Shown here piece by piece: positions 54,590 to 56,850 of a stretch of DNA of 64,000 nt. The stretch spans positions 124,001 through 188,000 of IMG/VR virus record IMGVR_UViG_3300019458_000020. One strand, written 5' to 3'. Both the position numbers and the translations under genes were made by a program. Origin of the DNA: a virus. Numbering within the stretch: position 1 is the first letter of the stretch; each line of letters starts with the position of its first letter. The notes beneath the pieces were generated by a model, which had not been told where the DNA came from, made no database searches, and saw nothing but the letters and a program-made list of their open reading frames with translations.

Positions 54590-54654
54590 AAGAATCAGAA
54601 ATGACTCCATATCTCATACGACTATCAGGAACTAAACCTGTTCCACTGATTCTT
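54590..54654 (-). ncRNA. Repeated small structured RNA, copy 1
   Basis: A 9-bp closing helix (AAGAATCAG/CTGATTCTT) encloses GGAAC-(AGGTTTA)-GTTCC and then a single-stranded TAGTCGTATGAGATATGGAG. Copy 2 (56790-56850) has the same interior but a different closing helix, so the pairing is conserved while the bases are not. 65 nt, lying between tRNA-Leu and tRNA-Val. No known family recognised. Confidence 0.6.
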
Positions 54655-54662
54655 TAACAAAT

Positions 54663-54740
54663 TGGTAGCACCTGACGGATTCGAACCCTCACTATCTAGT
54701 TTCTGAGACTAGCGACTCCTACCAGTTGGTCTAAGGTGCC
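54663..54740 (-). tRNA. tRNA-Leu (CAG), short variable loop
   Basis: Acceptor GGCACCT/AGGTGCT, A73, CCA, anticodon arm CTAGT-CTCAGAA-ACTAG, variable loop ATAGT only. Confidence 0.87.
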
Positions 54741-54747
54741 ATGAAAT

Positions 54748-54832
54748 TGGTAGTCGTGGTCCGATTCGAACGGGCAAAGAATACTACATTTTGAGTGTAG
54801 CGGTTGTTCCAGTTTCCCTTATCCACACGACC
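54748..54832 (-). tRNA. tRNA-Leu (CAA)
   Basis: Acceptor GGTCGTG/CACGACT, A73, CCA, anticodon arm CTACA-CTCAAAA-TGTAG, 8-base variable region and an enlarged D-loop. Confidence 0.82.
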
Positions 54833-54833
54833 A

Positions 54834-54899
54834 TAATGTTCAGGATATTGACTATGTACACGAATACGTGAACATGACTGGTTTCCTGAACATGAAAAA
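54834..54899 (-). ncRNA. Stem-closed RNA element between tRNA-Leu genes
   Basis: ATGTTCAGGA/TCCTGAACAT (10 bp) encloses a second hairpin ATGT-TCACG-TATT-CGTGT-ACAT. Not a tRNA and not a terminator (no T-run). Confidence 0.5.
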
Positions 54900-54900
54900 T

Positions 54901-54978
54901 TGGTACCTGCAGTGGGATTCGAACCTACACTACACAAATTTTAAGTTTGTTGACTGCTTCCAATTGGTCTATACAGGC
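54901..54978 (-). tRNA. tRNA-Leu (TAA), short variable loop
   Basis: Acceptor GCCTGTA/TGCAGGT, A73, CCA, anticodon arm ACAAA-CTTAAAA-TTTGT, variable loop GTAGT. D-arm close to that of tRNA-Leu(CAG). Confidence 0.87.
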
Positions 54979-54985
54979 ATTAAAT

Positions 54986-55072
54986 TGGTCCCCCATGTAG
55001 GTATCGATCCTACCCTGCCCGTAGGCGTTTGTTTTACAGACAAACCTTCGTCCTTAGAAGTATAATGAGGGG
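54986..55072 (-). tRNA. tRNA-Tyr (GTA), copy 2
   Basis: Anticodon arm TTTGT-CTGTAAA-ACAAA, long variable arm GCC/GGC as expected for Tyr, A73, CCA, T-loop ATCGATA. The acceptor has 5 of 7 pairs. Confidence 0.82.
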
Positions 55073-55264
55073 TTAACCTCTGCATTTTTTACAGAGAAAT
55101 TGTTTTCCATTAAATTCCATAAAATCTTTTCCATCATGTTCATTAATGATTGGTTTGTAATCATGACAACAATCACATTCTTCAACGAGTGAATAATTGG
55201 CATAATATATGAATTCCGCGTCGGTCAAACCTTCTGCTAATTTTTCGTGTGTGTTTATTATCAT
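55073..55264 (-). CDS. Small zinc-motif protein, 63 residues
   Basis: 63 residues with CDCCHDYKP and a C-terminal CKKC (about 20 apart), a likely zinc ribbon. Its stop directly abuts tRNA-Tyr. Unknown. Confidence 0.55.
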   Translation of the reverse strand: MIINTHEKLAEGLTDAEFIYYANYSLVEECDCCHDYKPIINEHDGKDFMEFNGKQFLCKKCRG

Positions 55265-55464
55265 AAATCGGCGCCGTTGAATCTTATTTCAGAATCGTCT
55301 CCTTCTTTTATTATCTATGGATGAGCCACAATCACCACAGACTCACAGACATGGAGCAATAACTATGTCCACCTTACAACGAGCAGTGACGCCCTAATTG
55401 CTATATGCTTACGATTGATTACGTAATACCGTAAAGGCCCAGAAACATAGTCCACGGCATAAAT
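55265..55464 (-). other. Non-coding slot with tRNA-like fragments
   Basis: 200 bases, no gene. GCAATTA pairs 6 of 7 with TTATTGC-T-CCA, like a tRNA acceptor with T73-CCA, but only about 32 bases lie between, too short for a tRNA. A GACAT/ATGTC hairpin is also visible. Confidence 0.4.
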
Positions 55465-55554
55465 TGGTGCGCCGGGTGGGATTTGAACCCACAGTGGAGG
55501 ATTTCCCTCATTAGGTTAAAAGCCTAATAGTTTCAGCCGTTTACTTACCGACAT
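55465..55554 (-). tRNA. tRNA with TTT (Lys) anticodon and long variable arm, copy 1
   Basis: Anticodon arm TTAGG-CTTTTAA-CCTAA, T-arm GTGGG-TTCAAAT-CCCAC, A73, CCA. The variable arm is GAGG-GAAAT-CCTC (18-base region), and the D-arm is Leu/Ser-like. Acceptor ATGTCGG/CCGGCGC pairs 6 of 7. Lys tRNAs are class I, so body and anticodon disagree. Confidence 0.75.
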
Positions 55555-55555
55555 G

Positions 55556-55715
55556 AAAAAACTGACTGGCCCACAAGATAGCAGGCACTTAGGTTGACTC
55601 ACGAATTGTCTTAACCTGTCTTAGAAATGATAATTACGGGTAAAGGCATTTCACCTTTACATCTTCTCTATTAAATGAAATATGCATCTTCCAAATAACT
55701 TTGATTTACTATCCA
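55556..55715 (-). other. Non-coding slot with hairpins
   Basis: No gene. GTAAAGG-(TGAAATG)-CCTTTAC (7 bp, 7-base loop) looks like a T-arm; GGTT-x2-GAC...GTC-AACC is nested. A 5' GATAGTA/TAATTATC match suggests a decayed tRNA. Confidence 0.35.
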
Positions 55716-55718
55716 CCA

Positions 55719-55791
55719 TCATCCGGCGGGACTCGAACCCAGCTGTTATTCCGGCGCAATGCGGAACGGCACTCCCTTAGCCATCGGAGCT
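55719..55791 (-). other. Degenerate tRNA-like gene
   Basis: T-loop TTCGAGT, anticodon stem TTCCG/CGGAA with an 8-base loop CATTGCGC (Ala TGC or Arg GCG), only 4 acceptor pairs, no CCA. Confidence 0.45.
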
Positions 55792-55792
55792 T

Positions 55793-55952
55793 TTAGGATA
55801 ACATGACTCTCTTGCATCACCATCAACACTATCATTTTTTAAATTGGTCAACATCATCACCGCCTGAGAGCATGAACCTTATACGGTCTAAGAGGGTCAC
55901 TGACATGCCTCGAATGTTACTCATACTACTTCTGCCGCAGCTGTTGACTAAA
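55793..55952 (-). other. Non-coding slot with acceptor-like helix
   Basis: CAACAGC pairs with GATGTTG followed by A-CCA (6 of 7), about 90 bases apart, with GAGG/CCTC and GTCA/GTGAC pairing inside. It does not form a cloverleaf by eye. Confidence 0.35.
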
Positions 55953-55953
55953 T

Positions 55954-56028
55954 TGGTCAGGTAGATGGGACTTGCACCCATACAGTTTCCTTCACAGGGA
56001 AAGATGCTACTATTACATCACGTACCTG
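55954..56028 (-). tRNA. tRNA-His (GTG), without G-1
   Basis: Anticodon arm TTTCC-CTGTGAA-GGAAA, acceptor CAGGTAC/CTACCTG, A73, CCA, T-loop TGCAAGT (G55). The base before position 1 is T and position 73 is A, so the usual G-1:C73 pair is absent. Confidence 0.87.
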
Positions 56029-56029
56029 A

Positions 56030-56216
56030 TTTAAGATAAAAATGATATGGGTCGATACCTGACATGAATCTCCACCATCCTAAGATGGATATTTAATGAG
56101 TGAGTCATTTCTTAGATTACCATATCCTACTCGTAACTGCGTAGTTTATCCTAAAAATACAAGATACCGTTTTGGTTTGTTCATTAGACAAGTTTTTTTG
56201 GTTGCTGTTTGGTATC
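56030..56216 (-). other. Non-coding slot with two stem-closed units
   Basis: GATATGG/CCATATC (7 bp) encloses CCATC-TTAG-GATGG; next, AAGATACC/GGTATCTT (8 bp) encloses TTGT-CTAATGA-ACAA. No gene. Confidence 0.45.
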
Positions 56217-56388
56217 TTAAATCTTTATAGTTTCAAACCAATAATTTAAATTTTCAATTTCTTTTTTCTTAACTATTAAAAGTTTTTTTGGAAATTGTTT
56301 CCATTTTGCATCATCTTTAGGAGTTTGATACCCCTTTACTTCAATGTATATTTCTAGTAGAGCAAACAATTGATTTTTCTTAGGAATT
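56217..56388 (-). pseudogene. C-terminal remnant of a PD-(D/E)XK nuclease
   Basis: An open frame without start codon, ending TAA at 56217-56219. It encodes ALLEIYIEVKGYQTPKDDAKW...FPKKLLIVKKKEIENL. E-V-K-G...D-x(2)-KW and the ending resemble the C-terminal nuclease part of VSR-type homing endonucleases. It begins right after tRNA-Ile. Only the end of the gene is left. Confidence 0.6.
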
Positions 56389-56465
56389 TGGTGGTAGATG
56401 CAGGATTCGAACCTGCTACCTCAATCTTATCAAGATTTTGCTCTACCATGATGAGCTAATCTACC
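56389..56465 (-). tRNA. tRNA-Ile (GAT), copy 2
   Basis: Acceptor GGTAGAT/ATCTACC, A73, CCA, loop TTGATAA with normal T33, T-loop TTCGAAT. Confidence 0.9.
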
Positions 56466-56466
56466 A

Positions 56467-56600
56467 TTAAAATTGCCGGTTACTCTCTCCCGGAAGTCAT
56501 ACCACTTTCCTTTGAATCGCCACGGCGACTTTTTTCACCGAATGTTTAGGAACTGACAGCACCCCCGTCACAAACATTGATTGGTTGTAGGTATCACAAA
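56467..56600 (-). other. Non-coding slot with three hairpins
   Basis: AATGTTT/AAACATT (7 bp, about 56541-56577) around TGAC/GTCA; TCGCC-GT-GGCGA (about 56517-56528); GGAAGT/ACTTTCC. No gene and no tRNA. Confidence 0.45.
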
Positions 56601-56601
56601 T

Positions 56602-56676
56602 TGGTGGAGCCACGGGGAATCGAACCCCGATCTATGGATTGCAAATCTACCGTATTACCATTATACAGATGACCCC
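56602..56676 (-). tRNA. tRNA-Ala (TGC)
   Basis: Acceptor GGGGTCA/TGGCTCC identical to tRNA-Ala(CGC), A73, CCA, loop TTTGCAA. The anticodon stem GTAGA/TCCAT has one A-C mismatch. Cys (GCA) is excluded because its loop would need T38 and an unpaired stem. Confidence 0.82.
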
Positions 56677-56710
56677 ATGAAAAATTGGCTGTTCATATAT
56701 GAACAATAAA

Positions 56711-56787
56711 TGGTTGGGTAGGGGAGAATCGAACTCCCGACCTCTACAATGTCAATGTAGCATTCTTCCGTGCTGAACTACCACCCA
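56711..56787 (-). tRNA. tRNA-Val (GAC)
   Basis: Acceptor TGGGTGG/CTACCCA, A73, CCA, anticodon arm CTACA-TTGACAT-TGTAG, T-loop TTCGATT. Confidence 0.88.
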
Positions 56788-56789
56788 AT

Positions 56790-56850
56790 AAATGACAACA
56801 TGACTCTATCACTCATACGACTAGCGGGAATGAACCCGTTCCGGTCATTT
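56790..56850 (-). ncRNA. Repeated small structured RNA, copy 2
   Basis: Closing helix AAATGAC/GTCATTT around GGAA-(CGGGTTCA)-TTCC and TAGTCGTATGAGTGATAGAG. Matches copy 1 at 54590 through most of the interior. It sits 2 bases from tRNA-Val and 6 from tRNA-Gln, so tRNA processing would release it. Confidence 0.6.

Follow-up and report, generated by a model that had tools for sequence, protein, structure and literature searches.

A small folded RNA, for which we found no description in the literature, occurs as a previously unrecognised component of phage tRNA arrays. Two copies lie in the window (the whole 64,000-nucleotide stretch analysed here, bases 124001-188000 of a virus record of 250,813 bases, G000) and five more were found, each on another IMG/VR contig, so that the family comprises seven copies in six records (Table 1). 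All seven are placed among tRNAs and oriented on the tRNA strand. The element is almost certainly a real conserved structured RNA, and comparison of the copies predicts a three-way junction composed of a closing helix (P1), a first hairpin (P2), a UAGUCGU linker, a second hairpin (P3) and a conserved GUU at J3/1.

Two related elements between tRNA genes

The virus record contains 46 tRNA matches, and all 32 tRNAs called by ARAGORN in the window are carried by the minus strand. The initial annotation had proposed two copies of a structured RNA with a similar interior, different closing helices and close tRNA neighbours. The two paralogous elements were located exactly at 54654-54590 and 56850-56790, on the same strand as the tRNAs, and a search within their own genome found them 78% alike over 58 nt (E 1.4e-6), the window copies matching only each other in this genome comparison. 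Their closing helices do differ, being AAGAATCAG/CTGATTCTT (9 bp) in copy 1 and AAATGAC/GTCATTT (7 bp) in copy 2, and the closeness to tRNAs was confirmed, copy 1 being separated from its flanking tRNAs by 8 and 9 nt, and copy 2 by 6 and 2 nt.

Table 1. Positions of the element, its parts and neighbouring RNAs (window coordinates unless a contig is named)
Feature	Position	Strand	Basis or remark
Copy 1, whole element (65 nt)	54590..54654	-	sequence, Rfam scan (no match), covariance model
Copy 1 flank, tRNA-Leu(CAG)	54740-54663	-	
Copy 1 flank, tRNA-Val(UAC)-like gene	54580-54507	-	
Copy 1 P1 5' strand AAGAAUCAG	54646..54654	-	perfect pairing with 54590-54598; shuffle p 0.0046
Copy 1 J1/2 invariant GGAA	54641..54644	-	partner of UUCC in alternative fold
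Copy 1 P2 hairpin CAGG-UUUAGUU-CCUG	54626..54640	-	CM alignment, covariation
Copy 1 J2/3 AUAGUCGU	54618..54625	-	UAGUCGU invariant in 7/7 copies
Copy 1 P3 hairpin AUGA-GAUAUGGAG-UCAU	54601..54617	-	covariation, CM alignment
Copy 1 P1 3' strand CUGAUUCUU	54590..54598	-	pairing, shuffle test
Copy 1 order: AAGAAUCAG-U-GGAA-CAGG-UUUAGUU-CCUG-AUAGUCGU-AUGA-GAUAUGGAG-UCAU-UU-CUGAUUCUU	54654-54590	-	
Copy 2, whole element (61 nt)	56790..56850	-	sequence, covariance model
Copy 2 flank, tRNA-Gln(UUG)	56932-56857	-	
Copy 2 flank, tRNA-Val(GAC)	56787-56711	-	
Copy 2 P1 5' strand AAAUGAC	56844..56850	-	pairs with 56790-56796; shuffle p 0.033
Copy 2 P2 hairpin CGGG-UUCAUU-CCCG	56825..56838	-	loop 1 base shorter than in other copies
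Copy 2 J2/3 CUAGUCGU	56817..56824	-	conservation, CM alignment
Copy 2 P3 hairpin AUGA-GUGAUAGAG-UCAU	56800..56816	-	covariation, CM alignment
Copy 2 P1 3' strand GUCAUUU	56790..56796	-	pairing, shuffle test
Copy 2 order: AAAUGAC-C-GGAA-CGGG-UUCAUU-CCCG-CUAGUCGU-AUGA-GUGAUAGAG-UCAU-GUU-GUCAUUU	56850-56790	-	
Further copies	L003 (G001), L004 (G002), L012 (G003), L014 (G004), L016 (G007)		
tRNAs with T-loop RGYRKNA, window	54580-54507, 53931-53858, 52154-52078, 50577-50504, 46801-46714	-	
tRNAs with T-loop RGYRKNA, elsewhere	L105, L106, L107, L108, L016, L111		
tRNAs with T-loop UGCRANN	58606-58530, 57530-57457, 56028-55954, 50496-50423, 39284-39209	-	
CCA-ended RNA	39205-39098	-	CAU anticodon-like loop, long variable arm, T-loop UGUAACU
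CCA-ended RNA, 80 nt	38667-38588	-	T-arm (UUGAAUU loop), apparent 11-nt anticodon loop
Second closed element between tRNAs	54896-54836	-	UGUUCAGGA/UCCUGAACA around another hairpin
CCA-ended RNA, about 105 nt	55957-55845	-	GUCAACA/UGUUGAC acceptor-like stem, no recognisable T-loop
Closed RNA directly after the L016 element	L016 340-265	-	13-bp helix GAAUCAUACUAGC/GCUAGUAUGAUUC

A rare family in viral tRNA arrays

When 2.9 million viral contigs were scanned with TAGTCGTATGAGNNATNGAGTCAT, GGAACNGGTTNNNTTCCNGNTAGT, GGAACNNGTTNNNTTCNNGNTAGTCGT and looser patterns, the same five further carriers came back repeatedly, from four different patterns; since such scans require near-exact matches, this count is a minimum for the family. 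The covariance search that had been suggested as a check was run with a model (R1) seeded exclusively with non-window copies (four sequences), from which P1 and, to let P3 align, three loop bases in L012 and L016 were left out. R1 recovers both window copies, at 53.9 bits (copy 1) and 53.8 bits (copy 2), with an E-value of about 2.5e-12, or 7e-13 with filters off, a setting under which the next-best site in the array scores 8.7 bits. No third copy was found in G000 with this model. Judged by such scores, the window copies stand far beyond chance, recovered as they are by a model that contains no window sequence.

R1 found nothing real in 26 other viral records, mostly fragments that carry a relative of the baseplate gene found in the window, and nothing in named relatives. 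Two exact patterns gave no match in 84,980 prokaryote genomes, one query gave none in plasmids, and four queries did not find the element in 50,697 named phages. The family is rare, with six records carrying it. Several matches were rejected as chance: those in L013, L015, L114 and L115, obtained with loose patterns or from R1 at 25-28 bits, lie outside tRNA arrays and lack UAGUCGU, the ones in L015 and L114 apparently within coding sequence, and five Aeromonas phage matches to L012 extend over 22 nt in its P3 region, with the one inspected lying inside a coding gene. Separately, an exact GAGTCATGTT, which is the P3'-J3/1 sequence of copy 2, is present in a tRNA gap at 55809-55800 (minus strand); it could be a remnant of a third copy, but its match count is at chance level and R1 misses the site.

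Three of the carriers (G000, G001 and G002) share genes: the baseplate wedge of G000 is 66% identical to that of G002, and its PhoH-like protein is 70% identical to that of G001. Copy 1 and its upstream tRNA-Leu align jointly with G001 at 79%, which indicates that this slot was inherited. The neighbouring tRNA is not constant in the family and may be Leu, Gln, His, Ser or others. In the stretches compared, the remaining carriers (G003, G004 and G007) have no proteins in common with these three or with each other, barring one weak 71-aa match, and the core is maintained across phage groups that lack detectable common proteins in those stretches. The element was not found in LR756508, a related huge phage with 28 tRNAs, and is therefore dispensable. 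It is an accessory module, spread over phages with large tRNA arrays. A gene for an RtcB-type tRNA splicing ligase is present in the carrier G004 (L110, 15714-16907).

A variable closing helix around a near-invariant core

P1 varies from 7 to 20 bp and is unrelated in sequence in most copies, yet it is fully complementary at a fixed offset in every one of them. Against shuffled flanks, its helix length gave p values of 0.0046, 0.033, 0.0019, 0.0028, <5e-5 and <5e-5; part of P1 is common to L012 and L016, and L014 nearly repeats L012. P2 has the form CxGG/CCx'G, where x:x' is A:U, G:C or C:G over all copies, and an additional swap from G:C to A:U is found at the next pair in L016. Four copies have AUGA/UCAU as P3, the other three GCCA/UGGU. 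All 32 cells pair in the four seed sequences, with double-sided change at four pairs, and slid registers of the seed alignment contained no double change; these covariation counts are small because only about three independent lineages are known. Compensatory change, initially noticed in the closing helix, is therefore seen in three helices (P1, P2 and P3). The near-invariant core consists of GGAA, the P2 loop UUUNGUU, UAGUCGU, the P3 loop AUGRAG and GUU. The predicted minimum-energy fold departs from this consensus in several copies, and the structural model rests on comparison and not on energy, since single-sequence folding prefers other structures for some of them.

For the first hairpin, the initial annotation implied a GGAAC/TTCC pairing. 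Its conservation stands; its pairs are invariant and show no covariation, and the covarying stem is CxGG/CCx'G. The GGAAC/GUUCC pairing overlaps P2, so the two folds are mutually exclusive, and their energies lie within 1.5 kcal/mol of each other in five of six copies; in copy 2 the evaluated energy favours P2 by 4 kcal/mol. Because both sides of both pairings are conserved, the alignment suggests that P2 may be a two-state hairpin, alternating between CxGG/CCx'G and GGAAC/GUUCC.

Neighbouring RNAs in the carrier arrays

A structural scan of the carrier records for CCA-ended tRNA genes gave two classes with odd T-loops, of which none were found on antisense strands. In the first class the T-loop reads RGYRKNA (e.g. 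GGCAGUA, AGCGUUA) in place of UUCRANN. By automatic call, the D-loop GG is absent from 14 of 16 such tRNAs and from 2 of 76 canonical ones (Fisher p 1e-12); the two remaining cases apparently have GG in the D-stem, not in the loop. The second class has the T-loop UGCRANN, with G for U at position 55, and 6 of its 10 members lack GG in the D-loop region, again by automatic call. The D-loop of the odd classes often contains AAUAG or AAAAG in place of GG. The pattern looks like a coordinated alternative tRNA elbow (18:55 with 19:56) that is common to unrelated phages, and several of these tRNAs were missed by ARAGORN. Among the other RNAs of the window array, the one with the CAU anticodon-like loop is 80% identical to L108 14577-14680 and was not called a tRNA, the 80-nt RNA is 92.5% identical to L106 9864-9943, and the second closed element has no homologue in the compared arrays.

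Discussion

We propose that the element is transcribed as part of a long tRNA precursor, from which a 60-90-nt RNA would be freed by RNase P, cutting the 5' end of the following tRNA, and by 3'-end processing of the preceding one. Such release is plausible from the 2-9 nt spacing, and we consider co-transcription with the tRNAs followed by release to be probable. The freed RNA would keep short tails, and the P1 clamp would close and protect its ends; both the release and the short-tailed, P1-closed product are extrapolated from established tRNA maturation. The near-invariant core might then fold into a binding surface that acts in trans on a protein or RNA of the host or the phage; the near-invariant unpaired bases point to either a partner or an active site, and toggling of P2 between CxGG/CCx'G and GGAAC/GUUCC may be part of the function. 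Action in trans is a tentative assignment, to which we give slightly less than an even chance; the mechanism as a whole, in which a small self-contained structured RNA is freed from a tRNA precursor and acts in trans, we judge to be evenly balanced. It is quite unlikely that the element represents a new class of phage small RNA, freed from tRNA precursors, in which a P2 flipping between the two pairings makes a bistable trans-acting switch, decoy or ribozyme directed against host translation or tRNA-directed defence machinery.

A trans-acting RNA ranks first among the readings considered, followed by a cis element, a ribozyme, a derived tRNA and a DNA site. As a cis-acting element within the polycistronic tRNA transcript, the RNA could, like the put RNAs of phage HK022, modify RNA polymerase so that it reads through a long untranslated operon, or it could guide precursor processing. 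It always lies within a tRNA operon on the tRNA strand, the copies in G004 and G007 are near the 5' end of the array portion examined, and put RNAs are likewise small two-hairpin elements; the copies in G000, G001 and G002, however, lie well inside the array with varying neighbours, and the tightly closed P1 suggests a domain that is insulated from its own transcript. We regard a cis role as possible but rather unlikely, and from sequence alone it looks the same as a role in trans. It is improbable that the element is a small self-cleaving ribozyme serving to detach itself or adjacent tRNAs. The three-way junction, the conserved unpaired core and the sequence-variable P1 are typical of small ribozymes, and tRNA precursors require cutting, but hammerhead, twister, pistol, hatchet and the other self-cleaving ribozymes of Rfam gave no covariance match at E up to 10, hammerhead core strands misfit in every permutation checked by eye, and outside P1 we saw no conserved step resembling a cleavage site.

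A decayed or extremely derived tRNA, with P1 as the acceptor and P2 (loop UUUNGUU) as a T-arm-like hairpin, would explain the occupation of tRNA slots; the top covariance match outside the family is the T-arm of the L012 tRNA-Gln (17.8 bits), and the same phages carry other odd tRNAs. This reading is very improbable and already largely refuted. The tRNA family (RF00005) matches neither copy, though more than 30 others in the array pass the cut-off, and no CCA follows P1, copies 1 and 2 continuing with GUUUUCAAU and AUU and L003 and L004 having none either; the array's other tRNAs encode CCA. The order of D-arm, anticodon arm and T-arm is also missing, as both the D-arm and the anticodon arm are absent and two hairpins lie within P1, the T-arm-like one first and on the wrong side of the acceptor. 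Across unrelated phages the non-tRNA core hardly varies, which is the opposite of decay and points to a working RNA, not a broken tRNA. The initial proposal of a functional structured RNA of no known kind holds up, with homologues all in tRNA slots, no Rfam family matched up to E 10 and no decayed tRNA recognised. A DNA-level recombination or integration site is the least probable reading and hardly credible: inverted repeats that could act as DNA do flank the element, and its presence in unrelated phages means that it moves horizontally, but orientation and placement always follow tRNA transcription, G:U pairs occur among the P2 and P3 covariation, neither a common flank nor a duplicated target was observed, and the ends of attC (RYYYAAC/GTTRRRY) do not match.

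The gaps in the long tRNA arrays of huge phages usually go unannotated, and here at least one element in such gaps proves to be a conserved RNA, common to phages without detectable common genes. At about 65 nt, with its helices and invariant bases defined, it is a compact and testable RNA for studying roles of tRNA arrays beyond tRNA supply. With tRNA (RF00005) it shares genomic slots, a near-tRNA size, a closing helix of at least 7 bp and a T-arm-like hairpin, and it differs in that an 8-nt single-stranded linker replaces the anticodon arm with its 7-nt loop. The put RNAs of HK022 are small, cis-acting RNAs with two hairpins that lie near early-operon promoters and have no closing P1; the element is a small two-hairpin phage RNA too, set apart by description through its P1. 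Purine riboswitches and hammerheads are three-way junctions with a variable closing helix, conserved junction strands and two conserved-loop hairpins, and the architecture of the element is alike, without a sequence match, mRNA context or Rfam match.

ROOL and GOLLD, structured noncoding RNAs of unknown function from phages and prophages, are often found near tRNA islands, measure hundreds of nucleotides and form multimeric cages (PMC12286853). Neither gave a covariance match to the element at E up to 10. The element resembles them as a structured noncoding RNA of phages located by tRNA islands, and differs in its size of 61-90 nt and its single three-way junction.
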